From the NCBI GenBank assembly GCA_025353105.1, contig JANXRG010000008.1, forward strand, positions 1-54,734: 54,734 nt of DNA, written 5' to 3'. Origin of the DNA: Verrucomicrobiota bacterium (GTDB taxonomy: Bacteria > Verrucomicrobiota > Verrucomicrobiia > Chthoniobacterales > SZAS-18). The notes under the pieces are model-generated. The model made no database searches. It was not told the origin of the DNA and saw only the letters and a program-made list of their open reading frames with translations. This document shows, in pieces, positions 8,689-46,739 of the stretch; within the stretch, counting starts at the first letter, position 1, and each line of letters starts with the position of its first letter. The position numbers and the translations under genes are program-made.

Positions 8689-8728
8689 GGCGTGGTTATT
8701 GGTAATTAGTGGGGGAAGCGAAGCGACG

Positions 8729-11318: not shown

Positions 11319-13739
11319 TCAGTCCGTCCGCAGGGCGACCATGGGATCGATGCGGGTGGCGCGGAGGGCGGGGATCAAATTGGCGAGGATGGCGACAAGG
11401 AGGATGACGCCGATAACGCCGGCGTAGACGAGTGGATCCGAGGGGCGGACTTCGAAGAGCAACGCGGACATGAGTCGCGTCAGCGCGAGCGCGCCGGCCA
11501 CGCCCACCGCCACACCGATGAGCACCAACCTCATGCCCTCGCTCACGACCATGCGAACGACATCACCGGGGCCGGCCCCGAGGGCCATGCGCACGCCGAT
11601 TTCGCTGGTGCGTTGCGTGACGGAGTATGCCATCACGCTGTAGATGCCGATGCTCGCGAGCACGAGCGCGAGGCCGGCGAACACGGCGAGTAGCATCATG
11701 GTCAACCGGCGATCGACGATCGATTGCGCCACGATTTGATCCATCGAATTCGGATTGGTGAGCGGAATGCCGGCGTCGACGTCATGGAGCGCGGCGCGCA
11801 CGCTGTTCGTCAGGCTCAGAGGATCCAGATCCGTCTTCACCATCACGATGGTGAACCCCTCAGGCCGCTGCAGGATTGGGTAATACATCTCCGCATCGGC
11901 TGGCTGGGTGAGGCTGGCGGTATGCGTGTCGCCGACCACGCCGACGACCTCCTGCGTCATCTGCGCCATGCCGGTTATTACCTTCTGGCCAATCGGGTTT
12001 TCGTTCGGGAAAAGTTTTTTCGCCATCGTCTCATTGATGATGACGACATGCGGGCTGGTCGGCGCATCTGTCTCGTTGAAGTCGCGTCCCTGCTTGATGG
12101 GAATTCCGAGGATGCCGAAACGGTTGGGGCTGATGAGATGCCGCAGCGCGAGAGGCTGGGCGCTGAGCGGCGGATTGGCGCGACCGACCACGGCGTAAAC
12201 GGAAGGCCCGTTGTTGCCGCTGAGCGGCGGGTTGTCACTAAATGCGACGGACTTGACGCCGGGGACCGCTCCGAGCCGGTCGTAGAGGCGCTTGTAAAAT
12301 GAGACGAGCTCGTTGCTCCACATGGGAAACTGGCTGGGGGGAAGAACCACCGCGCCGGTAAATATCCCGCCCGGGTTGAAGCCGGGAGCCACGTTTTGCA
12401 GGCGCATGAAGCTCGAAACTAAGAGGCTGGCCGCGATGAGGAGCACGAAGGACACGGCGACTTCCGCCACCAGCAGACCGCTGCGAAAGCGATTCTGCCG
12501 TCCATCACCGGTCGAACCGCGGCTTGCATCCTTCAAGGCCTCGTTCATGTCCGCGCGCGCTCCCTGCCAGGCCGGCACCAGGCCCATGATCAACCCGGTT
12601 AGCAGCGATGCGCCCAGGGTGAAGGCCAGGACCGTGGGATCGAGCGAAACCTCGTCGACCCGCGGAATGAAGTCGCGCCCGAGAGCCACCACGATTTTCA
12701 GACTGAAATACGCGAGCACCAGGCCGAGCGCGCCGCCCAGCACTGAAAGCAAGACGCTTTCGGTCAGGAATTGACGGATGACGTCGCGCCGCGTCGCACC
12801 CAACGCAAAGCGGATGGCAATTTCTTTTCGCCGGCTGGCAAATCGGGCGAGCAGCAAATTGGCGACATTCGCGCAGGCGATCAGCAGCACGCAGCCCACG
12901 ACCGTGAACAGCATGCCAAAACTCTGGCGCTGCCCGCCGACCAAACCATCCAGCACCAAGTCGACGTCGGCGTGTGAATTCGAGTCAACGTTCGTTTTGT
13001 GCGCAACGGCGTAGCCCGCCGCCAGGACATTCACCGCCTCGCGGGCCTGCGGCAGCGTGACACCGGGCTTGAGGCGCGCGAAGACGTTATAGAAATAGCC
13101 GCCATTGTTGATCTGCGCGGGAACCAGCAGTGGTGAATCCTGCGGCCGGGGGGTCCAAAGATCGATCCGGTTGAATGGGAAACGCGACAGCGACTTGGGC
13201 AGGACGCTGATGATGGTGTGCGGCTTCCCGTCGATAACCAGTGACTTGCCGACCGCGCGTGGATCGGCGCCGAATTGCCGCTCCCAAAATCCGTAGCCCA
13301 GGATGACCACGTTGGCTCCGCCGGGCCGGTCTTCATCCGCCGAAAAGCCGCGTCCGTGCAACGGCTGGATTCCAAGCAACGGCAAATAGTTGGCGGTGGC
13401 CATCATGCCTTGAACCTGCTGCGGATCACCCAACTCGGTGATGGTGAATGGACTTTGCAGCGTGTAGGCGACGTCGCTGAACACCTGCTGCCCTTCACAG
13501 ATCGCGAGATAGCGCGGATAGGAGAACCCGGCGCGCTCGATTTTCTGGGCCTTGTCCGTCGAAGTGAGCTGCACCAGTTGCTCGGGGTGCGGATAGGGGA
13601 GCGGCTGGAGAAAGACCGCGTTGATGAGGCTGAAGATCGCGGTATTCGCGCCGATGCCGAGCGCGAGCGCGAGCACGGCCACCCCGGTGAAGCCAGGGTG
13701 CTTGAGCAACTGGCGAAAGGCGAATTTCAAATTGCTCAT
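11319..13739 (-). CDS. ADOP-family MacB-like permease 4
   Basis: This is an 806-residue permease counted from ATG 13739 (MSNLKFAFRQLLKHPGF). A longer in-frame reading to 13808 would overlap the ADOP5 coding region and lacks family similarity. Signatures are RRKEIAIRFALGATRRDVI in the first half and TSEIGVRMALGAGPGDVV in the second. The linker after the first FtsX domain (MNEALKDASRGSTG) and the TM pattern match ADOP3. It starts 20 bp downstream of the ADOP5 stop, the tightest junction of the row, so co-transcription with ADOP5 is likely. Confidence 0.9.
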   Translation of the reverse strand: MSNLKFAFRQLLKHPGFTGVAVLALALGIGANTAIFSLINAVFLQPLPYPHPEQLVQLTSTDKAQKIERAGFSYPRYLAICEGQQVFSDVAYTLQSPFTITELGDPQQVQGMMATANYLPLLGIQPLHGRGFSADEDRPGGANVVILGYGFWERQFGADPRAVGKSLVIDGKPHTIISVLPKSLSRFPFNRIDLWTPRPQDSPLLVPAQINNGGYFYNVFARLKPGVTLPQAREAVNVLAAGYAVAHKTNVDSNSHADVDLVLDGLVGGQRQSFGMLFTVVGCVLLIACANVANLLLARFASRRKEIAIRFALGATRRDVIRQFLTESVLLSVLGGALGLVLAYFSLKIVVALGRDFIPRVDEVSLDPTVLAFTLGASLLTGLIMGLVPAWQGARADMNEALKDASRGSTGDGRQNRFRSGLLVAEVAVSFVLLIAASLLVSSFMRLQNVAPGFNPGGIFTGAVVLPPSQFPMWSNELVSFYKRLYDRLGAVPGVKSVAFSDNPPLSGNNGPSVYAVVGRANPPLSAQPLALRHLISPNRFGILGIPIKQGRDFNETDAPTSPHVVIINETMAKKLFPNENPIGQKVITGMAQMTQEVVGVVGDTHTASLTQPADAEMYYPILQRPEGFTIVMVKTDLDPLSLTNSVRAALHDVDAGIPLTNPNSMDQIVAQSIVDRRLTMMLLAVFAGLALVLASIGIYSVMAYSVTQRTSEIGVRMALGAGPGDVVRMVVSEGMRLVLIGVAVGVAGALALTRLMSALLFEVRPSDPLVYAGVIGVILLVAILANLIPALRATRIDPMVALRTD

Positions 13740-13759
13740 GACCGTGCAGGGCTTGTCAC

Positions 13760-16204
13760 TTAGTCCGCGCGCAGTGCGACCATCGGATCCACGCGCGTGG
13801 CGCGCCACGCGGGCACGAGGCAGGCGGTCACGGCCGAGATGCTGAGGATGGCGAAAACTCCGACCAGCGTGGGCGGGTCGAACGGACTGGTGGCGAAGAG
13901 CAGGCTGCTCATCAAGCGCCCGAGCAGCACTGCGCCGGCGAACCCGGCGACGAGGCCGAGACCAACCAGCCTGAGGCCGCGTCGGAGCACGAGCGCGCGG
14001 ACTGATCCGGCCTGGGCGCCGAGCGCCATGCGGATGCCAAATTCGCGCGTGCGCTGCGTGACCGTGAGGGCGAGCAGGCCGTAGAGGCCCACCACCGCCA
14101 GCAGCAGGGCCACGCCGGAGAAGACGCCGAGCAGTGACATCGTCAGGCGACGGGGCGCAAGGCTCAGGGCAATTCTTTGATCCATTCGCCCGGCGACGAC
14201 GACTGCCTGTTCCCGATCCAGCGCGTGGATTTCGCGCGTGATGACCGCGCTGAGCGCGTTCGGGTCACCAGTGCTCGTCCGGACCAGCAGCGTCCCGCCG
14301 CGCTCTGGAACCTGCGCGTGGGCATAATAAAGTTGCGGGAGGGCCTGCGGTTCAACGCCCTCGCCCGGCGCATCGTTCCGCGTGCGACGCGCAACCCCCA
14401 CGATGGTCATGGGCGGAGCATCCTTGGCGTCGGTTTGGTTGTCGTCGATGTGCTCGCCAATGGGATCGCGACCCGGGAAAAACTGCGCGGCCAGTGATTC
14501 ATCGATGATGACGGACTTGGGGCCGTCCCCGGCATCGGTCGCGTTGAAGGGCCGGCCGCGCACGATGTCGATGCCGAGCACGCGGAAATAATCCTTCGAA
14601 GCCAGCGTGATTTCCGCCAGCGGTTCCTTGCCGGGGTCGGGGGCCGGCGTGCCGGTGATGTGAAAACTGGAGTCATCGCTCGTGTCGTCGAACGGAACAT
14701 TTGCGCCGAAGGCCGCGCCGGTGACGCCCGGCAGGGCCGACACGCGTTCCAGGAGTTGCGTGTAGAAGCCCGAGATTTTCGCGTCGGAATCGTAGCGGAC
14801 GCGCGGCAGCTCAAGTTCCAGCATGAGCACGCCGAGCGCGTTGAACCCGAGCGGCAGCTCCTGCGCGCGTTGGAAACTGCGAATCAGCAAGCCCGCACCC
14901 GTCAGCAAGACGAGGGCCAGCGCCACCTGGCCGATCACCAGGATCGATTGCGCCCGGCCGCGCGCCGGGCCCTCGGATCCACCGCGCGTCCCGCCCTCGT
15001 GCATGCCGTTGCTGAGATCATGCATCCGCGAGGCGCGCCACGCCGGCCACAAGCCGACGAGCAGGCCGGAGATCAAGGCGACGGCGCAGTTGAAGACCAG
15101 CACCGTCCAGTCCAGCCGGGTTTCGGCGAAGCGCGGAGCGTTCGGCGGGCTGAGCAGCTGGATGGCGGAAAGTCCCCACCACGCCAGCAGGATCCCGGCG
15201 ATCCCGCCAAACACCGCCAATAGCGTGCTTTCGATCAGGAACTGACGGGCCAGGTGAGTCCGACTGGCCCCGAGCGCGGCCCGCACGGCCATTTCGCGGA
15301 CGCGCCCCGCGGCCCGGGCCAGCTGCAGGCCGGCGATGTTGGCGCACGCAATGAGCAGCACGCAGCCGACGGTCCCAAGGAGGAAGAGCAAGCTGAGTCG
15401 ATACTGTCCGACGGCGCTTTCAAACAGGAGTAGAGCGCGAGCGCTCCGGCCGCTGTTGGTTTCAGGATACTTTTTTTCGAGTCCGGCCGCGATGTTGTTC
15501 AACTCCGCAGCCGCGCTGGCCATGCTCGTGTCCGGCTTGAGGCGGGCGAGCACCGAATAGCCGCCGTGCGCGCCCCGGTTCAACGTGTTGGCCTGGTTGC
15601 GCAGCTCGCCCAACGGAATAAACAGAGCCGCCTGACGCGGCAGGTTCACCCGAGGATCGGCGACGCCGACGACGACGCGCTCAAGACCGTCGATCTTGAC
15701 GCTTCGTCCGATCACGCTTGGCGAGGCATCGAACATGCGGCGCCACAGGCGATCGGAGAGAACCACGGCGCGGGGACCGCCGGGGATATCCTCCTCCTCC
15801 GTGAAAAAGCGTCCCAACTGGGGCGGCAATCCGAGGATGCCGAGGAAGCCGCCGGCGACGCGCGCCCCGGTCAGCCGTTCCGGCTCGACGGAGGAATTGC
15901 CGCCGACCGCGAAATTCATGGACTCACGGCGGAACAGCGCCAGGTCGGTAAAGCCGTGCTGGTTTTCGCGCCAGTCCATGAAGTTCGGGTAGCTCACGGC
16001 GCCGGCGCTGAAGTTGGGGCTCGACTCGCGCAGCAGGACGAGTTGTTCCGGTTGTGGATACGGCAGCGGGCGCAGCAACACGGCATTCACAACCGAGAAA
16101 ACGGCGGTGCACGCGCCGATGCCAAGCGCGAGCGTGAACACGGCCAGCACGGTATAGCCGGGCGATTTCAGCAGGCGGCGGAAGGCGAGTTTTAAATCGT
16201 TCAT
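13760..16204 (-). CDS. ADOP-family MacB-like permease 5
   Basis: This is an 814-residue permease (MNDLKLAFRRLLKSPGY, then [17 protein letters not shown]; the usual Asn of GANTAIF is Cys). Signatures are VREMAVRAALGASRTHLA and TREFGIRMALGAQAGSVR. The second periplasmic core contains a HITGTPAPDPG segment shared with ADOP6 but not with ADOPs 1-4 or 7, so 5 and 6 look like the closest pair in the row and may come from a recent local duplication. Confidence 0.9.
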   Translation of the reverse strand: MNDLKLAFRRLLKSPGYTVLAVFTLALGIGACTAVFSVVNAVLLRPLPYPQPEQLVLLRESSPNFSAGAVSYPNFMDWRENQHGFTDLALFRRESMNFAVGGNSSVEPERLTGARVAGGFLGILGLPPQLGRFFTEEEDIPGGPRAVVLSDRLWRRMFDASPSVIGRSVKIDGLERVVVGVADPRVNLPRQAALFIPLGELRNQANTLNRGAHGGYSVLARLKPDTSMASAAAELNNIAAGLEKKYPETNSGRSARALLLFESAVGQYRLSLLFLLGTVGCVLLIACANIAGLQLARAAGRVREMAVRAALGASRTHLARQFLIESTLLAVFGGIAGILLAWWGLSAIQLLSPPNAPRFAETRLDWTVLVFNCAVALISGLLVGLWPAWRASRMHDLSNGMHEGGTRGGSEGPARGRAQSILVIGQVALALVLLTGAGLLIRSFQRAQELPLGFNALGVLMLELELPRVRYDSDAKISGFYTQLLERVSALPGVTGAAFGANVPFDDTSDDSSFHITGTPAPDPGKEPLAEITLASKDYFRVLGIDIVRGRPFNATDAGDGPKSVIIDESLAAQFFPGRDPIGEHIDDNQTDAKDAPPMTIVGVARRTRNDAPGEGVEPQALPQLYYAHAQVPERGGTLLVRTSTGDPNALSAVITREIHALDREQAVVVAGRMDQRIALSLAPRRLTMSLLGVFSGVALLLAVVGLYGLLALTVTQRTREFGIRMALGAQAGSVRALVLRRGLRLVGLGLVAGFAGAVLLGRLMSSLLFATSPFDPPTLVGVFAILSISAVTACLVPAWRATRVDPMVALRAD

Positions 16205-16291: not shown

Positions 16292-18730
16292 TTACTCCGT
16301 TCGCAGTGCGACAATGGGATCGACGCGGGTGGCGCGGCGCGCGGGCAGCAGGCAAGCGAGCGCAGCGGCACTGGCGAGCACGAGGGCGACGACGGCGAGC
16401 ACGAGTGGGTCGAGCGCCCCGACGCCGAAGAGTAGGCTGCGCATCAGCCGCGAGAGACCAAGCGCGCCGAGCAGTCCGACCCCGAGTCCGACTGCGACCA
16501 GGATCAGGCCCTGCCGCAGCACCAGCTGCAGAATGCTCCGGTGCTCCGCGCCCAGGGCCATGCGGATTCCCATCTCGCGCGTGCGATTCGCCACGTTCAA
16601 CGCCATCACGCTGTAAAGTCCCAGCACCGCGAGCAGCAGCGCGATCGCGGCAAAGAGCGCAAAGAGCGTCAGCGTCAGCCGGTGTGAGGCGAGATTGCGG
16701 CCGATCGCCATCTCCATGGACTCGACGTTCGAGACGGACTGATCCGGATCGATTGCCAGGACCTCACGCTTGACCGCGGCGGCGAGCTGAAGCGGGTCGG
16801 AAGTCCTGGTGCGGACGACCAGCGAGCGTTGCAAGGCGCGATTTTGCGGGGCATGATAATAGGCCTGCACAAAGTCCGGCGCCCGATCCAGGTCGGTGCG
16901 AACCGTTCCCACCACGCCGATGATCGTCATGGGGGGCGCCGCGGGTTCGTTCGGTCCGGTTGAGACCGTATTGTTGTCGATCTGCTTGCCAATCGGATCC
17001 TCGTTCGGGAAGTGTTTCTTGGCGAAGGCCTCGTCCACGATGATCCGAATTGGGCCATCAGCCTTGTCCTCGACATTGAAGGTCCGTCCGCGCAGCAACG
17101 GGATGCGCATGGTCTTGAAATAGTCGCCGCTTACCGCGTTGCATTCCGCGTTCAGCTCCCGTCCGGGGGCCGGATCGGGCGTGCCCGTGATGTGATAGCT
17201 GGAAGTCCAGTTGCTGTTGCCCTGCGGCGCGTTGATAACGGTGGCAACCTCCTCCACGCCCGGCAGCGCGCGGGTGCGCTCGAGCAATTGCTCGTAGAAG
17301 CGATCGCCCTTTTCGTCCGTGTCGTAGCGCACCTCCGGCAGCGCCACCGCCATCAGCAGCAGGTTGCGAGGCTCGAAGCCGAGCTTGACCTGCTGCAAGT
17401 TGGAGAAACTCCGAATCAACAATCCGGCCCCGGCCAGCAACACGAGCGCGAGCGCGACTTGTGCGATGACCAACCCGCTGCGTGCGCGGCGTGTCTGGCC
17501 GCTGTCGCTCGAACCCCGCGTGCTGCCGCTCAGCGCGAGGGTCAGCGAAACGTTTCGGCTGGTCTGCCACGCCGGCCAAAGGCCAAACAAAAGTGTCGTG
17601 CCCACCGTGACGGCGATGGCGAAGAGCAGCACCCGGTTGTCGAGCGCCAGTTGATCCAAGCGCAGGTTTGGGCTCGGTGCGAGCAGCAGGATCAAGTCGC
17701 GCGTCCAGTATGCGATCGCGATGCCAAGGGCCGCGCCGCCGGCGGCGAGCAGGTTGTTTTCAGCGAACAACTCGCGCATTAGTTGAGCGCGTCTGGCGCC
17801 CAGCGCGGCGCGAATGGCAAACTCCTTCTGCCGGCCGACCGCGCGCGCGAGCAGCAGATTGGCGACATTGGCGCAGGCGATCAGCAGGACACAGGCGGTG
17901 GCGCCCAGCAGCAGAAAAAGGCTCTTGGTGTCGGAACCAACGCGGCTTTCCAACAGCGGCAACGGCGTGCTGGCCACGCCCGTATTATTTTCGGGGAATT
18001 GTTTCTCGAGCGCGGCGTAAGTCGTGTCCAGGTCGGCGCGCACCTGCTCAATCGTCACCCCCGGTTTCATCCGCCCGAGCATGGAGAGACCGGGGTGGTT
18101 GCCCCGGCTCGTCATCTCGCGCGTCTTGCGAAGGTCGTTGAACGTAATGAGCGCATCGGCGCTGCGCATCTCCTCGAAATTCGCCGGCAGCACGCCGATC
18201 AATTCGTACGGTTCGCCATTGATCACCAGCGTGCGGCCCAGCATGGCGGCGTCGCCGCCGAACCGCCGCTGGAAGAACTTCTCGCTGATGACGATCGCCT
18301 TGGGTCCACCGGGCTCATCCTCCTTCTCGAGGAAATCGCGACCCATGCGCGGGGTGATGCCGAGGACGGACAAATAATCCCAGGTGACGCGCCCGCCGCG
18401 CAGCTGCTCGGGTTCGCCGCCGATGCCGGTCGCAGCCAGGCTGACGCGTTCCGAGCGAAAGAGCGCCAGGCCTTCGAGCGTTTTCTGGCTGGACTTCACG
18501 TCCAGGTAATTCGGCATGGCGACCGACGAGCTCGGAAATTCGGGCTGCCGCTCGCGGATCTGCACCAGGCGCTCCGAACGCGGATAGGGCAGGGGCCGCA
18601 GCAGCGCGGTGTTCATCACGCTGAAGACGACCGTGTTCGCGCCGATGCCGAGCGCGAGCGTAAAGATGGCCGCGAGCGTGAATCCCGGCGTCTTGCACAG
18701 GCGGCGCATGGCTTGGATCAAGGCGTTCAT
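16292..18730 (-). CDS. ADOP-family MacB-like permease 6
   Basis: This is an 812-residue permease starting MNALIQAMRRLCKTPGF, followed by GIGANTVVFSVMNTALL. Signatures are QKEFAIRAALGARRAQLM and TREMGIRMALGAEHRSIL. It shares the HITGTPDPAPG segment with ADOP5. The start codon is followed upstream by a solo copy of the 36-bp repeat that also occurs upstream of ADOP7. Domain order is as in the rest of the row and nothing is missing. Confidence 0.9.
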   Translation of the reverse strand: MNALIQAMRRLCKTPGFTLAAIFTLALGIGANTVVFSVMNTALLRPLPYPRSERLVQIRERQPEFPSSSVAMPNYLDVKSSQKTLEGLALFRSERVSLAATGIGGEPEQLRGGRVTWDYLSVLGITPRMGRDFLEKEDEPGGPKAIVISEKFFQRRFGGDAAMLGRTLVINGEPYELIGVLPANFEEMRSADALITFNDLRKTREMTSRGNHPGLSMLGRMKPGVTIEQVRADLDTTYAALEKQFPENNTGVASTPLPLLESRVGSDTKSLFLLLGATACVLLIACANVANLLLARAVGRQKEFAIRAALGARRAQLMRELFAENNLLAAGGAALGIAIAYWTRDLILLLAPSPNLRLDQLALDNRVLLFAIAVTVGTTLLFGLWPAWQTSRNVSLTLALSGSTRGSSDSGQTRRARSGLVIAQVALALVLLAGAGLLIRSFSNLQQVKLGFEPRNLLLMAVALPEVRYDTDEKGDRFYEQLLERTRALPGVEEVATVINAPQGNSNWTSSYHITGTPDPAPGRELNAECNAVSGDYFKTMRIPLLRGRTFNVEDKADGPIRIIVDEAFAKKHFPNEDPIGKQIDNNTVSTGPNEPAAPPMTIIGVVGTVRTDLDRAPDFVQAYYHAPQNRALQRSLVVRTRTSDPLQLAAAVKREVLAIDPDQSVSNVESMEMAIGRNLASHRLTLTLFALFAAIALLLAVLGLYSVMALNVANRTREMGIRMALGAEHRSILQLVLRQGLILVAVGLGVGLLGALGLSRLMRSLLFGVGALDPLVLAVVALVLASAAALACLLPARRATRVDPIVALRTE

Positions 18731-18732
18731 GA

Positions 18733-18768
18733 GAATTTCAGATTTTAGATCTTAGATTTCAAATTTGT
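18733..18768. repeat. Solo copy of the AATCTGAAATC-type repeat
   Basis: This 36-bp sequence, three bases upstream of the ADOP6 start codon, matches 34 of 36 bases with 21383-21418, which lies in the same position relative to ADOP7. Here there is no partner inverted copy and no cassette gene. The rest of the 108-bp spacer (to 18838) shows no further feature. Confidence 0.75.
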
Positions 18769-18838: not shown

Positions 18839-21379
18839 TCATTCGGAGCGGAGCGCCGTCATTGGGTTCACGCGGGTGGCGCGACGGGCGGGGAAGAAGC
18901 AGGCGAAGAGCGCGGCGGCGCCGAGCACCATGATGGCGCCACCGAGCGCGATTGGGTCATACGGGCTGACGCGGAAGAGGACGCTGGCGATCAGCTGGCC
19001 GGCCGCCAGCGCGAGCAGAACGCCAAGGCCGAGGGCAACGGCAGTTTGCTTCGCGCCCTGACCCATGATCAACTGGAAGACGTCGGCGGGCCGGGCGCCC
19101 AGCGACATGCGGATGCCGATTTCGCGAGTACGGCGCGAGACCGCATAAGCGTGGACGCCATACACGCCGATGGCGGCGATGAGCAGGGCCGCGCCGCCAA
19201 AGACGGCGAAGAGCGCCGCGCCCGCCCGGATGGTCCAGCTGCCGAAATTACGATCGACGACGTTTTTGAATGTGGAAAGGCTCTGGAGCGGAAGATCGGA
19301 TTCCGCGGCGCCCAACTCGCGGCGCAACACCGGCAGGAAGGCCGAGGCGGCGGCCGGCGATTCGTTCGCGAGGCGGACCTGGAAATACACGCTCGCTTCC
19401 GGCGCCTGCGCCAGCGGCACGTAGAGATGGGCATGGGATTCGTTCCCAAACACGTCGTGCCGGGTGTTGCGCACCACGCCGATGATTTCCATTTCCGGCC
19501 GCGTGCCATCGGGGGAGGCCGAGAGGTACTTCACGCGTTGTCCGATGGCGCCTCCGTTCGGGAATAATTTTTTCGCAACCTTTTCGTCAACGATGATGGT
19601 CCGCGGCGCGCCCGGGATATCCGATTCGGCCGGAGTGAAGTCGCGTCCCTCCAGAATCGGAATGCCGACCGAGCGAAAGAGGCAGGTCGTAACCACATGG
19701 TAAACGCCGCTCGCGCCCAGTTTCTCACCGGGACTGGGCGTCGCGTCGACGGGATCGCCGGCGCGCAGGATCCGTTTTGTGTCCGTGTTGTTGATGTACG
19801 GCACCATCGTGTTGACCGCGACGGAGGCGACGCCGGGCATCGCGGCAATGCGGTCGCGCAGGCGAATCAAGCGTGGCAGCGCGTCGGTCGGCTTCACGCG
19901 CGAGAGACTGTAGTCCAGCTCGGCCACCACGCCGCCGTTGGTCGTGAATCCAGGGTCAGCGGTGGCGGCCATCGCACCGCCGCGGAAGAAGAGTGCGGCG
20001 GAGAAAACCAGCGCCAGGGAAAGCGCGAGCTGCGCCATGACCAGCAGGTGCCGGGGGGCAAAGAGCCGGTGGGACGGACTGTGGGCGAATTCGCCAGCCT
20101 GCTGCTTAAGGTCATTGGCCAGGTCGACCCGCGTCAAGTTCAACGCCGGCCCGAGGCTGAAAATGAGCGTCGCGATCAGGCAGAACGCGAACGTGGCGGC
20201 GAGGGCGGTGCGGTCGGGGGTGAAATCAACGACCAGATTGAAAGAGAAGGACATCGACTCGAAGACGCTGCGCATCGAGGACAACAGGACGCCGTTAGCC
20301 CAGTAGCTGAGGCCCAGGCCGACGATGCCACCGAGCATGGCGAGGACCAGTCCCTCGACGAGCAGTTGTCGAATCACGCGGCCGCGTCCGGCCCCGAGCG
20401 CAAGGCGGAGGGCGATTTCCTTCCGCCGCGCCGCGCCGCGCGCCAGCAGCATGTTTGCGAGATTCAAGCAGGCGATGAGCAGGACAATCGCGGCCAGACT
20501 GAGGAAGACGATTCCCATCAGACCGGTGACGTCATCGCTTTCGGGCTCCGTGCTGATGTTGAAACGGGAGGGTTTCTGCACCATCAACGCGCGGGCGCCG
20601 CCCGACTCCGGCGGGGCCAGTGCGTTGAGTCTTTCGTCGAGCACCGGCAGGCGCGACTTGGCGTTGTCAACCGTCACCCAGGGCGCGAGGCGGGCCAGGA
20701 TATTCAGGGCGTGGGTCCGCGGATTTGCGAGGTCGGAGCTTCCATCCGTCCATTGGCTTGACAGCTGACTATAGATGCCGAGGGGGAGCCAGGCGTCGGG
20801 CGCAACCAGCGCATGCGTGCCGCTGAAGCCGCGCGGGGCGACGCCGATAATCGTGTAGGCGTCACCGTTGACCCGGAGGGTGGAGCCAATCAGATTGTCC
20901 GTGCCGCCTAGGAACCGCCAGTACGCATGGCTGATCACGACCACGGGAAGGTTGGCCCCGGGCGTGGACTCGGCCGCGTTGAATCCCCGGCCGAGGGTCA
21001 GATTGGCGCCGTGCAGGGAAAAATAATTATCGGAGACGTAGAAGGCGAAACTGCGTTTTTGCGATTCCGCATCCTTGCCCAGTCCGGCCAGAGTGAAGCC
21101 CAAAGCGCAGACGTCGCTGAAGACTTCCTTGGTCTCGCGCAACGCCTGATATTCGGCGTAGGAGAACTGACGATAGCCGCCGTCCGTGCCCTTGCGCCCG
21201 GTGAAGACGGCCACGATCGACGCGGGATCCTGCGCCACGATCGGCTTGAGGATGGCGCCATTAACGAGCGCGAAGATCGCCGTGTTCACGCCGATGGCGA
21301 TGCCAAGGGTGAGCACGGCTGCGATCGTGAAGCCGGGGGACTTGAACAGTTGGCGGATGGCGAACTTCAGATCATTCAT
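18839..21379 (-). CDS. ADOP-family MacB-like permease 7 (operon-proximal)
   Basis: At 846 residues this is the longest permease and the first of the seven to be transcribed. It opens MNDLKFAIRQLFKSPGF and GVNTAIFALVNGAILKPI. Signatures are [18 protein letters not shown] and TREIGIRMSLGARPADVF. The extra length lies in the first periplasmic core (around residues 210-290) and in the region before the second FtsX copy. ADOP proteins are heterogeneous in their periplasmic cores, and this one is clearly separate from ADOPs 2-6. It is separated from the ATPase gene by a 4HB cassette in opposite orientation. Confidence 0.9.
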   Translation of the reverse strand: MNDLKFAIRQLFKSPGFTIAAVLTLGIAIGVNTAIFALVNGAILKPIVAQDPASIVAVFTGRKGTDGGYRQFSYAEYQALRETKEVFSDVCALGFTLAGLGKDAESQKRSFAFYVSDNYFSLHGANLTLGRGFNAAESTPGANLPVVVISHAYWRFLGGTDNLIGSTLRVNGDAYTIIGVAPRGFSGTHALVAPDAWLPLGIYSQLSSQWTDGSSDLANPRTHALNILARLAPWVTVDNAKSRLPVLDERLNALAPPESGGARALMVQKPSRFNISTEPESDDVTGLMGIVFLSLAAIVLLIACLNLANMLLARGAARRKEIALRLALGAGRGRVIRQLLVEGLVLAMLGGIVGLGLSYWANGVLLSSMRSVFESMSFSFNLVVDFTPDRTALAATFAFCLIATLIFSLGPALNLTRVDLANDLKQQAGEFAHSPSHRLFAPRHLLVMAQLALSLALVFSAALFFRGGAMAATADPGFTTNGGVVAELDYSLSRVKPTDALPRLIRLRDRIAAMPGVASVAVNTMVPYINNTDTKRILRAGDPVDATPSPGEKLGASGVYHVVTTCLFRSVGIPILEGRDFTPAESDIPGAPRTIIVDEKVAKKLFPNGGAIGQRVKYLSASPDGTRPEMEIIGVVRNTRHDVFGNESHAHLYVPLAQAPEASVYFQVRLANESPAAASAFLPVLRRELGAAESDLPLQSLSTFKNVVDRNFGSWTIRAGAALFAVFGGAALLIAAIGVYGVHAYAVSRRTREIGIRMSLGARPADVFQLIMGQGAKQTAVALGLGVLLALAAGQLIASVLFRVSPYDPIALGGAIMVLGAAALFACFFPARRATRVNPMTALRSE

Positions 21380-21382
21380 GGG

Positions 21383-21418
21383 GAATTTCAGATTTCAGAT
21401 CTTAGATTTCAGATTTGT
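21383..21418. repeat. Left arm of inverted repeat flanking the four-helix-bundle gene
   Basis: The inner 26 bp (21391-21416) are the reverse complement of 21835-21860 with 24 of 26 matches. The arm is made of two copies of the word AAATCTGAAATC (read on the opposite strand). It begins three bases from the ADOP7 start codon. Confidence 0.8.
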
Positions 21419-21871: not shown

Positions 21872-22543
21872 TCAGGTTTCCATCCACCCGTCGCGCAGCC
21901 GGATCACGTGGCGGCCGAAGCCGGCGTTTTGGTCCGAGTGCGTCACCTGCACGACCGTGGTGCCCTCGTCGTTCAGGCGCTTGAAGCGTTGCATGATCTC
22001 GCGGCCCTGATCGCTGTGGAGGTTGCCGGTGGGTTCGTCGGCGAGGAGCAGGCGCGGCTTCGCGATCGTGGCCCGGGCGATGGCCACGAGCTGCTGCTGG
22101 CCACCCGAGAGTTGGGACGGGAAAAGATCCTTCTTTCCGACGATCGAGAATCGATCGAGCGCATCGGCCACCATCGCCTCGCGGTCCTTGGCGTGCAGAT
22201 CGCGGTAGCGGAGCGGGACGTCGAGGTTCTCGGCGACCGTGAGATCGTCGAGCAGATGAAACTGCTGGAAGACGAAGCCGACATTCGCTTTGTTGAGCGC
22301 GGCGCGCTCCTTCGGTTTCATCGAGTGCACGGGCTGCTCGTCGAACCAGAACTCGCCCTGCCAGCCGTGATCGTAGAGGCCGAGAATGTTGAGCAGCGTG
22401 GATTTCCCCGCGCCGCTCGGGCCCATGATCGTGACAAAGTCACCGTCCTCGATGTCGAGCGTGATGCGGCGCAAGAGCCACGTCGGACTCGGTTTGGTGG
22501 GCACCGATTTCTCGAGCCCCTTGAGTTGAATCAACGGTTTCAT
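21872..22543 (-). CDS. ABC transporter ATP-binding protein A (MacB/LolD type)
   Basis: This is a 223-residue nucleotide-binding subunit. Walker A is GPSGAGKS (about residue 41), the Q-loop is in FVFQQFHLL, the signature is [14 protein letters not shown], Walker B is [11 protein letters not shown] and the switch His is in VTHSD. The DEPTGNLHS extension is typical of the LolD/MacB/FtsE branch, which powers FtsX-fold permeases. ATG 22543 gives the normal family start ([13 protein letters not shown]); a longer reading to 22597 adds 18 unrelated residues. It follows ATPase B by 84 bp and is the last ATPase before the permease row. Confidence 0.92.
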
Positions 22544-22627
22544 GAGTTCGGTACTCGTTTTTTGGCGCGAGGATTCGCGATCGCAGTGCGAAACCACGGC
22601 GTTTTTTGGGAGCGGTTTCTCGCGCGG

Positions 22628-23320
22628 CTAATGCTTCGTTTCTTCCACGACGCGACCGTCGAAAAGATGGATGGCGCGCTGGGCGTGCCCGGCGAAGCGC
22701 TCATCGTGCGTGACCATCACGATGGTGGCGCCGTCGGCGTGCAATTCGGCGAGGAGTTGCATCACCTGCTCGCCGTTGCGCGAATCAAGGTTTCCCGTGG
22801 GCTCGTCCGCGAGCAGCACGCTCGGCTTGCCGGCGAGGGCGCGGGCGACGGCGACGCGCTGCTGTTGACCACCGGAGAGCTGGCTCGGCAGGTGTCGCGC
22901 GCGATGGCTCATGCCGACCCGCTCCAGCGCGGCGGTGACGGCGGTCTTGCGGTCGCCCGGCGACATGCCGCGATAGGTGAGCGGCAATTCCACGTTTTCG
23001 AAGACGTCGAGGTCGCCGATGAGATTGAAGCTTTGGAAGATGAAACCGATTTCCTGATTCCGGACGCGGGCACGCTCGGAGGGATTCAAATCGGTGACGG
23101 GGCGATTGTTGAGTTTGTAGGTGCCGGCGGTGGCCGTATCGAGCAGGCCGAGGATTGAAAGCAGCGTCGACTTACCGCAGCCGGAGGGTCCCGCGATGGA
23201 AACGTATTCACCTTTGAGGATGTCGAGATGAATGCCCGAAAGCGCGTGGGTCTCAACCTCGTCCGTCAGAAACACCTTGGTGATGTCATCGAGTTGGATG
23301 AGATGTCCGTTGGTTTGCAT
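22628..23320 (-). CDS. ABC transporter ATP-binding protein B (MacB/LolD type)
   Basis: This 230-residue ATPase has Walker A GPSGCGKS, signature [17 protein letters not shown], Walker [14 protein letters not shown] and switch His in VTHDE. It is closer to the MacB/LolD consensus than ATPase A, whose signature and D-loop differ ([13 protein letters not shown]), so the two are not a recent duplicate and may form a heterodimer or serve different permeases. The start ATG at 23320 overlaps the frameshifted tail of the GxxExxY gene by 55 bp, as expected if that gene was inserted and then decayed. Confidence 0.93.
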
Positions 23321-23682
23321 AGGGAGTGAGGGGGAAGGGGCTTAGCCACGAAGGCACGAAGGGCACGAAGTATTGTTAGAGGATCTTGCGCTTGATGCCG
23401 TTTTTCAGAATTGATGTGCAGGCCCTCATGCTTTCCGGTGGCGCGGAGATAGCCGAGGAGTTGGGCTTCGTGGACGGGATCAAAGCGTTCCACCGCCTTG
23501 ATTTCGACAACGACGCGATCGGCCACCAAGAGGTCGAGTCGATGCTCGCCGATTGGGCAGCCGTTGTAGGTGAGCAGAACTGCGACCTGCCGCATAAAAT
23601 CGAGCCCGCGGAGGGCAAGCTCGTGGCAGAGGGCGTTTTCATAAACGCTCTCGAGGAGCCCGGGACCAAGGTGTCGGTGCAC
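23266..23682 (-). pseudogene. GxxExxY-family protein, decayed (C-terminal frameshift)
   Basis: The N-terminus HRHLGPGLLESVYENAL carries the G-x-x-E-x-x-Y motif (GLLESVY) that names the family. The middle (YNGCPIGEHRLDLLVADRVV, then EIKAVERFDPVHEAQLLGYL) is the conserved core, which resembles a PD-(D/E)XK nuclease core (D-L-L ... V-E-I-K-A). After LHIN the frame changes: the expected family ending (LKNGIKRKIL, stop at 23376) continues in another frame. A small deletion near 23410 therefore seems to have shifted the reading into unrelated sequence that runs into the ATPase B gene. The only start in frame is GTG 23682, and family-like codons (GAAIEV) lie upstream without an ATG. It is probably a pseudogene. 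Confidence 0.75.
23345..23370. repeat. Left arm of inverted repeat flanking the GxxExxY cassette
   Basis: This 26-bp arm is built of the word GGCACGAAG and is the reverse complement of 23747-23772 with 24 of 26 matches. It lies 25 bp from the start codon of ATPase B. Confidence 0.8.
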
Positions 23683-23746
23683 CTCAATCGCGGCCCCCTG
23701 ATCCCTTCCGAAGGCGAGTCCTCATGATTTCGAATCAGTGGCATTT

Positions 23747-23772
23747 CTTCGTGATCTTCGTGCCTTCGTGGC
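23747..23772. repeat. Right arm of inverted repeat flanking the GxxExxY cassette
   Basis: This 26-bp arm is made of the word CTTCGTGCC repeated nearly three times and is inverted relative to 23345-23370. It ends 7 bp before the adaptor stop codon (23779). The bracketed unit is about 428 bp. Confidence 0.8.
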
Positions 23773-23778
23773 CATCCT

Positions 23779-25032
23779 TCAGTTCAGTCGGACGCGGTCG
23801 TGGGAGTCCCACGTGGACATGTCGGAAAGGATGACTTTGTCGCCAGGCTGGAGGCCGGCGAGGATTTCGACGGTATTCACGGAGCTCCGGCCCAGATCCA
23901 CCGAGGTTCGCACTGCTTCACGCCCGTCTGCGCTCAGCTTGAAAAGTCCCACCTTGCCGCGTTCCTGGCCATAAGCGGGGCGGCCAACGAAGATGACGTC
24001 GTCGAGGCGTTCCAGCTCGATGATGCCTTCCACCGAGAGATCCGGTCGCGCGCCCTTGGGCAGCGTTCCGGTCAGCGCGATGTCCACCTTCACGGTGCCG
24101 TTCTGCACAGCGGGATCGACGCGCACAACTTCGCCGGCCACCGTGCCGTTGCGGGTGTCAACCATCGCCGGCTGTCCAATCTGAATGTCCTTGGCCTGCG
24201 TTTCCGCGATGCGCACTTCGGCCTTGAGGTGCGAGGGATCGGCGACCCGGGCGAGATTCAGACCGACCGTCACGCGCTGGCCGACTTCGAGCGGCAACGC
24301 CTGGAGCACGCCTTCCATGCCGGCACGCACCTGCAGCGCATCCACTTGTCCGCGCTTGAGCGCCGCCGCGGCCTTGAGTCGCTCCACGTCCGCCTCCTGC
24401 ACGGCCAGTTGCGGCCGGATTGATTCCTCCATGAACTTCAGCCGCTGGGTGCCGATCTCGTAGCGGGACTGCAAATCCGCGGCGCGCACGCGCGAGAGCT
24501 TGAGTTCCAGTTCGGCCACCAGGCCATTCTTCGAGAGCTGCTCATTGACCGATTGTTGCAATTTCGCCTGTTGCAGATCGGCGTCGAGCTTGGCGTGCTC
24601 GGCCCGGCGGTCGAGCACCTGGCCCTCGAGCTGCACGCGCAGGCTTGCGAGCTTGGCCTCCGACGACTTCGCGTTGAGGTCGGCCTCGACCATCTCCTGC
24701 GAAAGCTCCGGATTCGCGAGGGTGCAGAGGACGTCGTTGGCGCCGACGATCTTACCCGGGCGGGCCACAATCCGCTCGACGCGACCTTCGGTTCGGGCGG
24801 CGATCCATTGGATATCCTCGGGCACCAGCGTGCCCAGACCGCGCACCTGGCGCAGCATTGGTCCACGCTTCACGGTATCGATCCACACGGCGCTCCGCTC
24901 CACGGTGGGGGCGGCGGGGCGAAGCTGGGAAACACCGATGCTGATCACGATCAGGGCCAGTCCGGCGAGGCCACCGATGATCAGGCGGCGTTGATTTTTT
25001 TTCTTCGCGCGATCGGGGCGGGGGATATCCAT
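23779..25032 (-). CDS. HlyD/MacA-like periplasmic adaptor protein
   Basis: This 417-residue membrane-fusion protein is the expected partner of a MacB-type ABC pump. A basic N-terminus (DRAKKKNQRR) is followed by one TM anchor (about residues 18-38). A lipoyl half-domain follows around 65-105 (TLVPEDIQWIAARTEGRV), then a long coiled-coil hairpin about 110-225, the second lipoyl half (VRAGMEGVLQALPLEVGQRV), and beta-barrel and membrane-proximal domains to the end (GLQPGDKVILSD). ATG 25032 gives a normal start; an upstream in-frame start at 25128 adds 32 residues without family character. It is the only adaptor for seven permeases. Confidence 0.9.
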   Translation of the reverse strand: MDIPRPDRAKKKNQRRLIIGGLAGLALIVISIGVSQLRPAAPTVERSAVWIDTVKRGPMLRQVRGLGTLVPEDIQWIAARTEGRVERIVARPGKIVGANDVLCTLANPELSQEMVEADLNAKSSEAKLASLRVQLEGQVLDRRAEHAKLDADLQQAKLQQSVNEQLSKNGLVAELELKLSRVRAADLQSRYEIGTQRLKFMEESIRPQLAVQEADVERLKAAAALKRGQVDALQVRAGMEGVLQALPLEVGQRVTVGLNLARVADPSHLKAEVRIAETQAKDIQIGQPAMVDTRNGTVAGEVVRVDPAVQNGTVKVDIALTGTLPKGARPDLSVEGIIELERLDDVIFVGRPAYGQERGKVGLFKLSADGREAVRTSVDLGRSSVNTVEILAGLQPGDKVILSDMSTWDSHDRVRLN

Positions 25033-25132
25033 GTTCGAGACGATCGGAGGGACGGCGCCGTTCGAGACTCGGAACCGATCACCGGCGACGAGGCTGGACA
25101 TGGTTCGTTGTACCGGGACGTTTACCATGTTC

Positions 25133-25549
25133 TTAAGGCAACAGGATCCCGAACTTCATCGGAATACTCGGCAACGAGGGCAGGCCGACCGCGTTCGGAT
25201 TATTGATGCGTTGGGGTGAATTAATTTGGGCGGACGACCGGTCGCATTCGGGCGCATTGCAAACGGCGGTGGCTGGCACCGCCTGTCGATCGAAAACCGC
25301 CACGGCGCCGCGCAGCGTCCCGTCGATGTGCGCGCCCTCCCAGGCGGTCGCGATCAACATGACGGCGATTCCCACCATCAGGGCGACATAGGCCGGAATG
25401 TGATAGTGCTTTTCCTCGGCGATCTGGTCCCGCCAAAACTGCGTCAGACCGACATTGAGCGGCTGACGAAACGTGACGCGGTGACTCAATGGCGCGACAT
25501 CGCGAAGCGGTCGGATGCGAAGGGGCTCGAGATAGGTTTTTACAATCAT
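25133..25549 (-). CDS. Small single-span membrane protein, function unknown
   Basis: This 138-residue ORF is the first reading frame after the sigma-54 promoter. An N-terminal charged region (residues 1-48) precedes one predicted TM helix at about 52-70 (YVALMVGIAVMLIATAW) and a low-complexity C-terminus rich in Asn, Pro and Ser (SSAQINSPQRINNPN). A short cytoplasmic part, one span and a Pro-rich tail loosely recall TonB-like or adaptor-associated proteins, but I do not recognise a family. It lacks a good ribosome-binding site. Its position between promoter and adaptor is the main support. The frame could also be fortuitous leader. Confidence 0.5.
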   Translation of the reverse strand: MIVKTYLEPLRIRPLRDVAPLSHRVTFRQPLNVGLTQFWRDQIAEEKHYHIPAYVALMVGIAVMLIATAWEGAHIDGTLRGAVAVFDRQAVPATAVCNAPECDRSSAQINSPQRINNPNAVGLPSLPSIPMKFGILLP

Positions 25550-25609
25550 GTCTTGGAACGTTGGGCGGATGAAACCACCGACCGACCGCGGGTGTGACGC
25601 CCGCCTTAT

Positions 25610-25625
25610 TGCAATGACCGTGCCA
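25610..25625 (-). promoter_or_regulatory. Sigma-54 (RpoN) -24/-12 promoter
   Basis: Read on the minus strand the sequence is TGGCACGGTCATTGCA, an exact fit to the -24 (TGGCACG) and -12 (TTGCA) elements with the required four-base spacer. The predicted transcript start is near 25599, about 50 bases before the small membrane ORF and upstream of the adaptor, both ATPases and the permeases. An NtrC-type activator and its kinase are encoded directly upstream on the same strand. Confidence 0.85.
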
Positions 25626-25701: not shown

Positions 25702-25741
25702 GTGTCGTCCGTGGGACCGTGTCGTCCCGGGAATGGGACGA
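25702..25741. promoter_or_regulatory. Probable activator-binding sites (UAS) of the sigma-54 promoter
   Basis: TCGTCCC and GGGACGA form a perfect seven-base inverted repeat with a six-base spacer (25722-25741). A direct copy of GTGTCGTCC lies at 25702-25710 and another at 25719-25727, and GTCC-GTG-GGAC (25707-25717) is a second, shorter palindrome. The sites lie about 100-140 bp upstream of the predicted start, the usual distance for enhancer-binding proteins, and begin about 24 bp after the kinase stop codon. The best candidate to bind is the response regulator at 27433-28851. Confidence 0.65.
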
Positions 25742-25764: not shown

Positions 25765-27180
25765 TTAGGATGCATCCATTGGCAGCATCAGCCGCGCAGC
25801 GCAGCCCGTGCGATCCCCGCGGTTTTCGAGCGTCAAAACTCCGCCGTGCGCTTCGGCGATCTGCCGGCTCAACACGAGACCAATCCCGGAACCCTTCGGC
25901 TTGGTCGTAAAGAACGGGACAAACAGGTTTTTCGTGCCGGAGACGCCTGGCCCCTCGTCGAGTATGGTGATTTCGAAATTTGTGCCATGGTCGGCCCAAG
26001 TGACGGAGACGGCGCCGCCCGTTTCGGAAGCCGCCTCGACCGCGTTTTTCACGAGATTGACGATGACTTGCTCGAGCTGGTCGGAATCGACCTCCGCCTC
26101 GATTGGCGGGCCTGGGATCACCCGCACCGACTGGCATTGCTCGAGCGTCGCGACGCGCTCGACGATCGCTCCGATGCTTTGGCGAGTGCGGGTCGGTTTG
26201 GGGAGGCGCGCAAGATTTGCGTACGCCGCCATGAAGCGATTCAGCGAATCAGAACGCGACGCGATGACATCAAGTCCCCCCGCGATGTCCTCGCGCCAAT
26301 CCTCCGGCAATGGGTCGCGCGAAAGAATGGTGCGCAGGCTCCCCGCCAGCGAGCGGATCGGTGCGAGCGAATTATTAATCTCGTGTCCGAGCACGCGCAC
26401 GATGCGTTGCCAGGCGAGGCGTTCTTCCTCGCGGAGTGGCGCGCTCAAATCGGCCAGCACGAGCAGTTCATGCGGCCGGCCGCCCTCACGAAACGTGTCG
26501 CGATGGAGCTTGAACCGGCCCTTGGCACCGGGCAGGTCGAGATCGCACACCTCGTCATTCGCGCCCTTGAGGCATTCGTCGAGACCAAGCTCCACCGACG
26601 GCGCCTTGAGCAATTCCTTCGCCGGTCGCGCGAGCATCGAGGCGCCCGAGCGATTGACGAGGGCGAGCTTGCCGTCGGGATCGAACGCAAAAATGCCGAC
26701 CGGAATTTCCTCCATCACTTTGCGCAGAAGGGCCTCGGCTTCCTGCGCGCCGAGGCGTTGCTGGCGCAGCGTCTCGCCGAGCGTGTTCACCTCGCGCACC
26801 ACCGCGCCGAGCGAATCGTCGTCGGCCGCGCCGCGCACCCGGATGGAGTAATCGCCCTCGCGCACCGCGGCGAGGACGTTGGCAAGCGTTTGGAGGGGCC
26901 GCACAACGGCGGCGCGCACCGCGCCGATTCCGCCGAGGGCAAAGCCGACCGCCATGAGCCCGAAGGTCCACACGACCTTCGCGGAAAAGTCGCCGACCCA
27001 GAGCAGGCCGAACACGATCAGGACGGCCGGGAGCGCCGCAAGCAGCGCCATGTAGACCACGCGCCGGTGAAGCGACGAACGCGCACGGCGCTTGGCCTGA
27101 TCGAGGGAGATCACGCCCCAGAGAGAACCACAGCGCGTTGGCGAATCAAACCCCGAATCTTGCGAATGGACGCGCCTCAT
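25765..27180 (-). CDS. NtrY/NtrB-type sensor histidine kinase
   Basis: This is a 471-residue membrane kinase. Two TM helices (about 41-62 and 68-92) enclose almost no periplasmic loop, so sensing is probably within or near the membrane. Next come a HAMP linker (about 93-145), a PAS-like domain (about 150-250; IPVGIFAFDPDGKLALVNRS), the H-box GHEINNSLAPIRSL with His near 266, the N-box NLVKNAVEAA, the G-box DEGPGVSG and FTTKPKGSGIGLVLS. The HEINNSLAPI style is that of kinases paired with sigma-54 activators. I chose ATG 27180; GTG 27114 (VISLDQAKRR) is a good alternative. The activator gene lies just upstream and the target promoter directly downstream. Confidence 0.9.
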   Translation of the reverse strand: MRRVHSQDSGFDSPTRCGSLWGVISLDQAKRRARSSLHRRVVYMALLAALPAVLIVFGLLWVGDFSAKVVWTFGLMAVGFALGGIGAVRAAVVRPLQTLANVLAAVREGDYSIRVRGAADDDSLGAVVREVNTLGETLRQQRLGAQEAEALLRKVMEEIPVGIFAFDPDGKLALVNRSGASMLARPAKELLKAPSVELGLDECLKGANDEVCDLDLPGAKGRFKLHRDTFREGGRPHELLVLADLSAPLREEERLAWQRIVRVLGHEINNSLAPIRSLAGSLRTILSRDPLPEDWREDIAGGLDVIASRSDSLNRFMAAYANLARLPKPTRTRQSIGAIVERVATLEQCQSVRVIPGPPIEAEVDSDQLEQVIVNLVKNAVEAASETGGAVSVTWADHGTNFEITILDEGPGVSGTKNLFVPFFTTKPKGSGIGLVLSRQIAEAHGGVLTLENRGDRTGCAARLMLPMDAS

Positions 27181-27432: not shown

Positions 27433-28851
27433 CTATAATCCGTACTTCTGCAGCCTGCGATAAAAGGCACTGCGACTCAGGCCCATGGCCTCGGCGGCGA
27501 GGCGCGCGCTGCCGTCGTAGCGGGCCAGCGCCTTCTTGATCAGGAGCGCCTCGACGTCCTCAAGGCTCATCGCGTCGAGCGGTAAGCCCGGCGACGCCGA
27601 ACTCGCGGTGGGTTGCAGTCCAAGGTCGGCCGCGTGCACGACCCTTTCGCGCGCCATCAACACGGCGCGTTCCACGCAATGGCTGAGTTCGCGCACGTTG
27701 CCGGGCCAGTTGTGCTGCGTGAACGCGGCGCGCGCGGCCGGGTCGAAACCGGTGAGGGGCTTGCGGTAGCGCGTCGATTGCTGCCGCAGGAAAAAATCGG
27801 CCAGCGCCGGCACGTCCTCCGCGCGGTCCCGCAGCGGCGGCACATGAATTTCGATCGTATTCAGCCGAAAGAGCAGGTCCTGCCGGAATTTCCCCGCGGC
27901 CACCTCCGCCTTCAAATCGGAATTGGTCGCCGAGAGGATGCGCACGTCGGCGGTCCGCGTGCGCGACGATCCCACGCGTTCGTACTCGCCGGTCTCGAGC
28001 ACGCGCAAGAGTTTCGCCTGTTGGTTGAGCGTCATGTTTGCGATTTCATCAAGGAAGAGCGTGCCGCCGTCGGCCAGTTCGAAGCGACCCACGCGATCGG
28101 ATTTCGCGTCGGTGAAAGCGCCCTTTACGTGGCCGAACAACTCGCTCTCGAACACGCCCTCGCTCAGGCCGCCCATGTTCACGGTGACCAGCGCACGGCT
28201 TGCGCGACTGGACGCGGCGTGGAGGGCGCGCGCGATGACGCCCTTGCCGGTGCCGTTTTCGCCGGTGATCAACACATTCGCGTCCGACGGCCCGACCCGC
28301 TCAACCAATTCGAGCACGGGCCGCATCGCGGCCGACTTCGCGACGAGATCCGGAATTGTCTCCGCGCCGCGCAGCATCTTGTTTTCCGCCTCGAGCCGGC
28401 CGGCCCGGCGCAACGCGCTGTGCAGCTCAATCTGCGTGCGAAGAATTTGGATCAGGCGCGCGTTTTCCCACGGCTTCTGGATGAAGTCTTTCGCGCCGCG
28501 CTGCACCGCCTCGACCGCGAGATTGATCGTGCCCCACGCGGTCATGACGATCACCGGCAGCGTGGGATCGAAGCGCTGCAGTTTCTCCAGCACGTCGAGT
28601 CCCTCGCGGCCGGAGGTGGTGTCGCGCGTGTAATTCAAATCCATCAACACGACCGCATAGTCGTTCTTCTCGGCCGCGGCGAGCAGCGCCGCCGGGGAGC
28701 TGGCGGTGTCGACCGCGAGACCCTCGCCCTTGCAGAGCAGCTTGAGCGCGGTGAGCACGTCCGCCTGATCATCCGCGACAAGCACGCGCGGCGGGTCGGG
28801 GCTGGCGGGCGGTTTCGTCATCGGTGGGATCAGGGGAGAGCCGGGATCCAT
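27433..28851 (-). CDS. NtrC-family sigma-54 response regulator
   Basis: This 472-residue protein has three domains. The receiver domain (about 22-140) has acidic residues DD at 27-28, phospho-acceptor Asp near 71 (VLMDLNY) and Lys near 126 (FIQKPW). The AAA+ domain (about 165-400) has Walker A GENGTGKG, the sigma-54 contact loop as GAFTDA (a natural variant of GAFTGA) and Walker B GGTLFLDEI. The C-terminal Fis-type helix-turn-helix is about 430-472 (RLAAEAMGLSRSAFYRRL). When phosphorylated by the neighbouring kinase it should bind upstream sites and open sigma-54 promoters. ATG 28821 is an alternative start. It is divergent from pdxJ, with 99 bp between them. Confidence 0.93.
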   Translation of the reverse strand: MDPGSPLIPPMTKPPASPDPPRVLVADDQADVLTALKLLCKGEGLAVDTASSPAALLAAAEKNDYAVVLMDLNYTRDTTSGREGLDVLEKLQRFDPTLPVIVMTAWGTINLAVEAVQRGAKDFIQKPWENARLIQILRTQIELHSALRRAGRLEAENKMLRGAETIPDLVAKSAAMRPVLELVERVGPSDANVLITGENGTGKGVIARALHAASSRASRALVTVNMGGLSEGVFESELFGHVKGAFTDAKSDRVGRFELADGGTLFLDEIANMTLNQQAKLLRVLETGEYERVGSSRTRTADVRILSATNSDLKAEVAAGKFRQDLLFRLNTIEIHVPPLRDRAEDVPALADFFLRQQSTRYRKPLTGFDPAARAAFTQHNWPGNVRELSHCVERAVLMARERVVHAADLGLQPTASSASPGLPLDAMSLEDVEALLIKKALARYDGSARLAAEAMGLSRSAFYRRLQKYGL

Positions 28852-46715: not shown

Positions 46716-46739
46716 GGTCGAGCGGGGGCGAAACCGATC

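Follow-up and report, generated by a model that had tools for sequence, protein, structure and literature searches.

Permeases of the ADOP type take their name from the lack of an obvious ATPase partner, and the literature that we searched holds nothing to explain when they are expressed or where their energy comes from. Seven of them stand in one row in the window analysed here, a stretch of 54,734 nucleotides from a Chthoniobacterales genome of the phylum Verrucomicrobiota, and an earlier note on this DNA had placed a sigma-54 promoter in front of the row. The locus raises the question of whether such a promoter is real, which activator would serve it, and whether it could tie these orphan permeases to a source of energy.

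Read on the minus strand, 25625-25610 (TGGCACG GTCA TTGCA) agrees with the RpoN consensus at 12 of 12 positions, as had been claimed, and it is the only match to TGGCACGN4TTGC in the window with zero mismatches. When up to two mismatches are allowed, the window holds 13 matches to this pattern where shuffles predict 26.7, that is, no enrichment, and genome-wide (3.7 Mb) TGGCACN5TTGCW has two matches against five for its reversed control, a count that is not significant alone. As neither count rises above chance, both were discarded as evidence, and position and conservation decide. The gene setting is as first described, with the regulator and kinase on one side of the site and the adaptor, two ATPases and seven permeases on the other, all on the minus strand, and the source genome (3.72 Mb, 97.6% complete) does encode RpoN, with the RpoN box ARRTV. 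In dozens of related loci, 11-12 of the 12 promoter positions are matched upstream of the adaptor while the spacer letters differ. When 50 de-replicated loci are aligned, GGCA and TGC (the GG..GC cores) are invariant, the spacer varies and the flanking columns are mostly of low information. Relatives with a preserved gene order retain the site, as do sister species whose regulator and kinase genes no longer lie side by side. By these comparisons it is a conserved phylogenetic footprint, and the usual 12-nt spacing would put the transcript start near 25599. A second promoter match in the same genome, on contig C15, has no enhancer and was taken as chance.

Upstream of the promoter lies an element that the earlier note had overlooked, a tandem enhancer (25739-25702, minus strand) composed of the palindrome GTCCC-N6-GGGAC and a TCCCA-N4-CG half site. 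The spacing between the two sites corresponds to about two helical turns, the half site is the nearer to the promoter, and there is near-zero information outside the blocks. GTCCC-N6-GGGAC scores at least 9 of 10 at -113 to -115 in 48 of the 50 de-replicated loci, a score of 9 being reached by about 1% of shuffles. This is the anatomy expected for the binding site of a dimeric NtrC-family activator, and we predict that it serves as one. The genome has only two perfect copies of the palindrome, the second of which (contig C116) falls within a kinase-like ORF, has no promoter and was taken as chance; by the strict pattern of enhancer plus promoter, the genome holds a single composite site, that of the present operon. 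Across the order the composite occurs in 61 of 213 genomes and its reversed control in none. The tandem layout recurs with altered letters at Opitutaceae-type and several acidobacterial loci. Some adaptor loci in genomes of family f4 lack the strict site and have sites matching at 9-10 of 12 positions with a different palindrome, and there the enhancer word seems to have changed along with a more divergent regulator; at three such loci (L021-L023) the palindrome is GTCTCAAATTGAGA or ATCCTATTTTGAGAT, at equal distance upstream of the 9-10/12 site.

The candidate activator is the response regulator encoded in the window, which contains all three of the receiver, Sigma54_activat and Fis HTH domains and reaches the cut-off of none of the NCBIfam equivalogs listed. 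GAFTDA, rather than GAFTGA, is found in 41 of the 41 regulators with a recognisable motif, and it is among the listed variants expected to keep activity (PMC4641369). The receiver motif MDLNY(T/A)RDTTSGQEGL, present in the regulator and its orthologues (MDLNYTRDTTSGREGL in the window), is unusual for an NtrC-type protein, as is GAFTDA. The kinase lacks a periplasmic domain and has two hydrophobic segments joined by a very short loop, a predicted topology that favours a signal from within the membrane or the cytoplasm over a soluble ligand in the periplasm. The order regulator (65-68%), kinase (~55%), adaptor, first ATPase (~80%) is kept in most Verrucomicrobia loci. A search for the adaptor yielded 23 of 97 related genomes and 80 loci of a genome-contig collection, two sets that partly overlap, with contigs labelled Verrucomicrobia, Chthoniobacterales, Opitutae and Acidobacteria; the site is present in 19 of the 23 genomes with the adaptor and in 0 of the 74 without it. 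When about 210 genomes are scored for site and regulator gene, 49 have both, 12 the site only and 14 the regulator only (odds ratio 39), a co-occurrence concentrated in families f1, f4 and f8, so that the Fisher p-values overstate the independence of these related genomes. Two sister species, G001 and G002, keep the adaptor promoter and enhancer with the kinase not adjacent and the regulator on another contig, which is compatible with regulation in trans; the G002 site is at the end of its contig and presumably belongs to the adaptor, and no kinase homologue was detected near the same-genus regulator gene of G001 (L207, G001:C44).

Two other readings of the control region can be weighed against these results. 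A chance likeness to the sigma-54 consensus would account for a whole-genome count no higher than that of the reversed control; it would not account for cores that stay invariant in some 50 de-replicated loci while the spacer drifts and the enhancer is fixed, nor for a composite pattern with zero control matches in 213 genomes. Conservation has already refuted this reading, and we regard its probability as virtually nil. It is very unlikely, if less so, that the enhancer is bound by another NtrC-type activator and the linked two-component pair has other targets. The 12 genomes with a site and no strong regulator match would fit such an arrangement, as would the lack of an autoregulatory composite site in front of the window's own regulator gene. 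The strong co-occurrence of site and regulator and the regulator-kinase-adaptor synteny argue for the linked pair, and in two species (L152 and L183) the composite site precedes the regulator gene itself.

Table 1. Predicted features of the sigma-54 locus, listed in the direction of transcription.
Feature	Position	Strand	Remarks
NtrC-type response regulator	27433-28821	-	462 aa; receiver, sigma-54 AAA+ with GAFTDA loop, Fis HTH
Sensor histidine kinase	25765-27114	-	HAMP, PAS, HATPase; two hydrophobic segments, very short loop
Enhancer site 1, GTCCCATTCCCGGGAC	25724-25739	-	palindrome GTCCC-N6-GGGAC; 114 bp upstream of promoter
Enhancer site 2, GTCCCACGGACGACAC	25702-25717	-	half site; 22 bp from site 1
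Sigma-54 (-24/-12) promoter, TGGCACG-GTCA-TTGCA	25610-25625	-	sequence and footprint over 50 loci
Small first gene	25133-25549	-	138 aa, one hydrophobic segment; between promoter and adaptor
HlyD-type periplasmic adaptor	23779-25128	-	
ABC ATPase 1	22628-23320	-	MacB/LolD/DarD-like; most conserved subunit
ABC ATPase 2	21872-22597	-	
ADOP permease 1	18839-21379	-	MacB_PCD + FtsX; 61% homologue behind own composite site in G001 (L137)
ADOP permease 2	16292-18730	-	
ADOP permease 3	13760-16204	-	
ADOP permease 4	11319-13808	-	
ADOP permease 5	8729-11194	-	
DUF4097 'toastrack' protein	7681-8808	-	inside permease row; weak LiaG-like match, below cut-off
ADOP permease 6	5258-7654	-	
ADOP permease 7	2743-5163	-	final gene of row

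The genes downstream of the promoter (Table 1) combine an adaptor and ATPases with permeases that lack an ATPase domain. All seven permeases are of the MacB_PCD/FtsX type and score 720.6-967 bits, above the curated ADOP cut-off of 622.3 (TIGR03434), and both ATPases are separate genes, not fused to a permease, that fall below the MacB equivalog cut-off. There is no OEP/TolC gene in the window's permease row, and no PspA or PspC Pfam match among the operon proteins scanned. Beyond permease 7, a DEAD-box helicase gene on the opposite strand ends at 2735. Towards the other end of the window, minus-strand genes for DUF2126 amidoligase-like and circularly permuted ATP-grasp/Alpha-E proteins (43813-50262) form a possible peptide-ligase cluster.

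Two questions concern what the promoter would transcribe, the first of them at its very start, where the 138-aa ORF had gone unremarked. It might not be a gene, the roughly 400 nt from promoter to adaptor then being an untranslated leader. The window's ORF is divergent and gives a poor alignment with the main family (13% identity with its reference member), no Pfam or NCBIfam family reaches cut-off for it or for the small ORFs of relatives, and Opitutaceae-type loci have no small ORF and a promoter close to the adaptor. We nevertheless consider a leader unlikely, because an ORF of 85-131 aa, with a single strongly hydrophobic segment, occupies the equivalent place in some 60 relatives, dN/dS is below 1 (0.10-0.68) in the close pairs listed, and a C-terminal PSLPSI stretch is common to the window ORF and a same-genus protein. 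The family core reads FPxxDxNYx...PSFRxISxxYFxxEARxxFxxEAxxF and is followed by the hydrophobic segment. Taken as a gene, it would encode a small membrane protein without family match, a candidate subunit or feedback element of the system. At locus L146 a stand-alone 75-aa single-TM ORF (1920-2147, plus strand) lies 18 nt behind a composite site and resembles an orphan copy of this first gene.

The second question is how far the transcript runs. The row genes are all on one strand, the permease-permease spacers are 26-124 nt or overlaps, the scanned part of the spacers has no terminator-like site, and the row has no further composite site; on this layout, one transcript over the whole 23 kb is plausible. 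Two long spacers bear on the point: 458 nt between adaptor and ATPase 1 and 492 nt between ATPase 2 and permease 1, each with an unrelated inserted ORF that had also been overlooked. The first holds a GxxExxY ORF and the second a 23S-rRNA-intervening-sequence (IVP) ORF in opposite orientation with flanking repeats, and in a sister species the homologues of permeases 1 and 2 stand behind a composite site of their own. These features favour a promoter that drives the small gene, the adaptor and the ATPases only, the permeases from 21379 down having separate promoters or being read weakly, and we give this split a substantial, if somewhat less than even, chance beside the read-through that we prefer. 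As to the inserted ORFs themselves, the GxxExxY ORF (PF13366 PDDEXK_3, TIGR04256; 23266-23682, minus strand) has 31-nt inverted repeats nearby (23345-23375 and 23742-23772, 87% complementary), and the antisense IVP four-helix-bundle ORF (PF05635, TIGR02436; 21464-21856, plus strand) lies beside a repeat of the GAATTTCAGATTT type at 21383-21418, of which another copy is found at 18733-18768.

The composite site extends the case beyond this operon. In relatives, unlinked copies lie directly before ADOP permease genes (L107/L137, L109/L138, L143, L144, L148, L151, L154, L192 and L196), which amounts to about six independent cases in the order when shared ancestry is allowed for. One such site in G001 is followed by two ADOPs homologous to window permeases 1 and 2 (61% and 52%). 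The eighth ADOP of the window's own genome (contig C29) has no composite site in front. In two genera composite sites precede a pair of genes for a LolA-like protein (a weak Pfam match) and a sortilin-like protein: at L141, L142, L145, L149 and L193-L195 the first gene encodes a small secreted protein (with the weak LolA_like match in L149) and, where the next gene is seen, it encodes a sortilin/BNR protein of about 1080 aa. Genes for an M13 peptidase and for a small TM protein that stands on its own are further unlinked targets. Acidobacterial genomes have a variant, TCCC-N5-CGGACA ... TGGCNC-N5-TTGC, before adaptor operons, ADOPs and, in two genomes, a TolC-like OEP gene (L164, recognised by Pfam, and the similar L169). 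Its strict form is too narrow to give a frequency, and the 8 of 396 genomes that match it, with one control match, indicate presence; at many acidobacterial adaptor loci no site was detected. Since one switch precedes unlinked ADOPs, the regulator gene, LolA-like genes and a TolC-like gene in relatives, the sites outline a probable regulon. The same composite site before unlinked ADOP permeases also strengthens the original proposal of a sigma-54-regulated setting for orphan permeases.

We therefore suggest that the locus very probably belongs to a two-component, sigma-54-dependent export regulon in which one adaptor-ATPase operon is tied to orphan permeases dispersed over the genome. The upstream kinase would sense a signal, probably from the membrane or envelope, and phosphorylate the NtrC-type regulator, dimers of which would bind the tandem sites about 80-115 bp upstream of the -24/-12 promoter and remodel the sigma-54 RNA polymerase. 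Transcription of this enhancer-dependent operon would then pass through the genes for the small single-TM protein, the HlyD adaptor and the ATPases and continue into those for the ADOP permeases. The switch would likewise drive, in relatives, the unlinked ADOP permeases, the regulator gene, the LolA-like genes and, in Acidobacteria, the TolC-like gene. The regulon would in this way co-express one adaptor-ATPase engine with several permeases that have no ATPase domain of their own and may share it to move their substrates.

The mechanism is of a known kind. As in NtrB-NtrC, ZraS-ZraR and AtoS-AtoC, a kinase is paired with a receiver-AAA+-Fis regulator, a -24/-12 promoter and a tandem palindromic enhancer about 100 bp upstream, and some relatives appear autoregulated; the present system differs in its enhancer word GTCCC-N6-GGGAC, its GAFTDA loop and its targets, which are adaptor/ATPase and ADOP permease genes. 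The HlyD adaptor, MacB-like ATPase and MacB_PCD+FtsX permease recall the tripartite exporters of MacAB-TolC and DarABCD type, as does the OEP gene under the variant switch in two acidobacterial genomes, whereas here seven duplicated ADOPs without a fused ATPase domain accompany two separate ATPases in a row without an OEP. Shared with the phage shock (Psp) and Lia envelope-stress systems are the envelope theme and the presence of a DUF4097 toastrack protein and of a small membrane protein, and PspF is also a sigma-54 activator (PMC11237479); unlike in Psp, neither PspA nor PspC was recognised in the scanned operon proteins, a phosphorelay regulator takes the place of PspF, and permeases dominate.

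The class-level link between sigma-54 and such permeases is already known from PMC12316311 (PLoS One 2025). The available part of that paper describes sigma-54 promoters predicted, in Verrucomicrobiota, for FtsX-like permeases and the ATPases that go with them, in what it calls first evidence, and enrichment at COG0577/COG1136 in Opitutia and Bacteroidia by promoter matrix. No enhancer word or cognate regulator is named in that part, nor is there mention of an adaptor operon, a small gene, an orphan ADOP regulon or members from Acidobacteria. An earlier comparative study (PMC3162934) does not mention these permeases in its main text, and our search for literature on ADOP together with sigma-54 found nothing direct. 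The regulon and its connection to orphan permeases seem undescribed in the searched literature, which excludes most subscription journals.

The presence of adaptor, MacB/LolD-like ATPases, ADOPs, toastrack protein, LolA-like protein and OEP under one switch suggests an envelope-maintenance or export response. In its widest form, which we advance tentatively and hold to be somewhat less probable than not, the proposal is of a cross-phylum two-component sigma-54 regulon in which scattered ADOPs are co-induced with, and powered by, a single adaptor-ATPase operon that begins with an undescribed small membrane protein. The DNA word GTCCC-N6-GGGAC...TGGCAC-N5-TTGC can serve as a finder for regulon members among soil Verrucomicrobiota and Acidobacteriota, which are largely uncultured, and a common enhancer and promoter that link ADOPs to one adaptor-ATPase operon provide a testable proposal on when these permeases may be made and what would power them.
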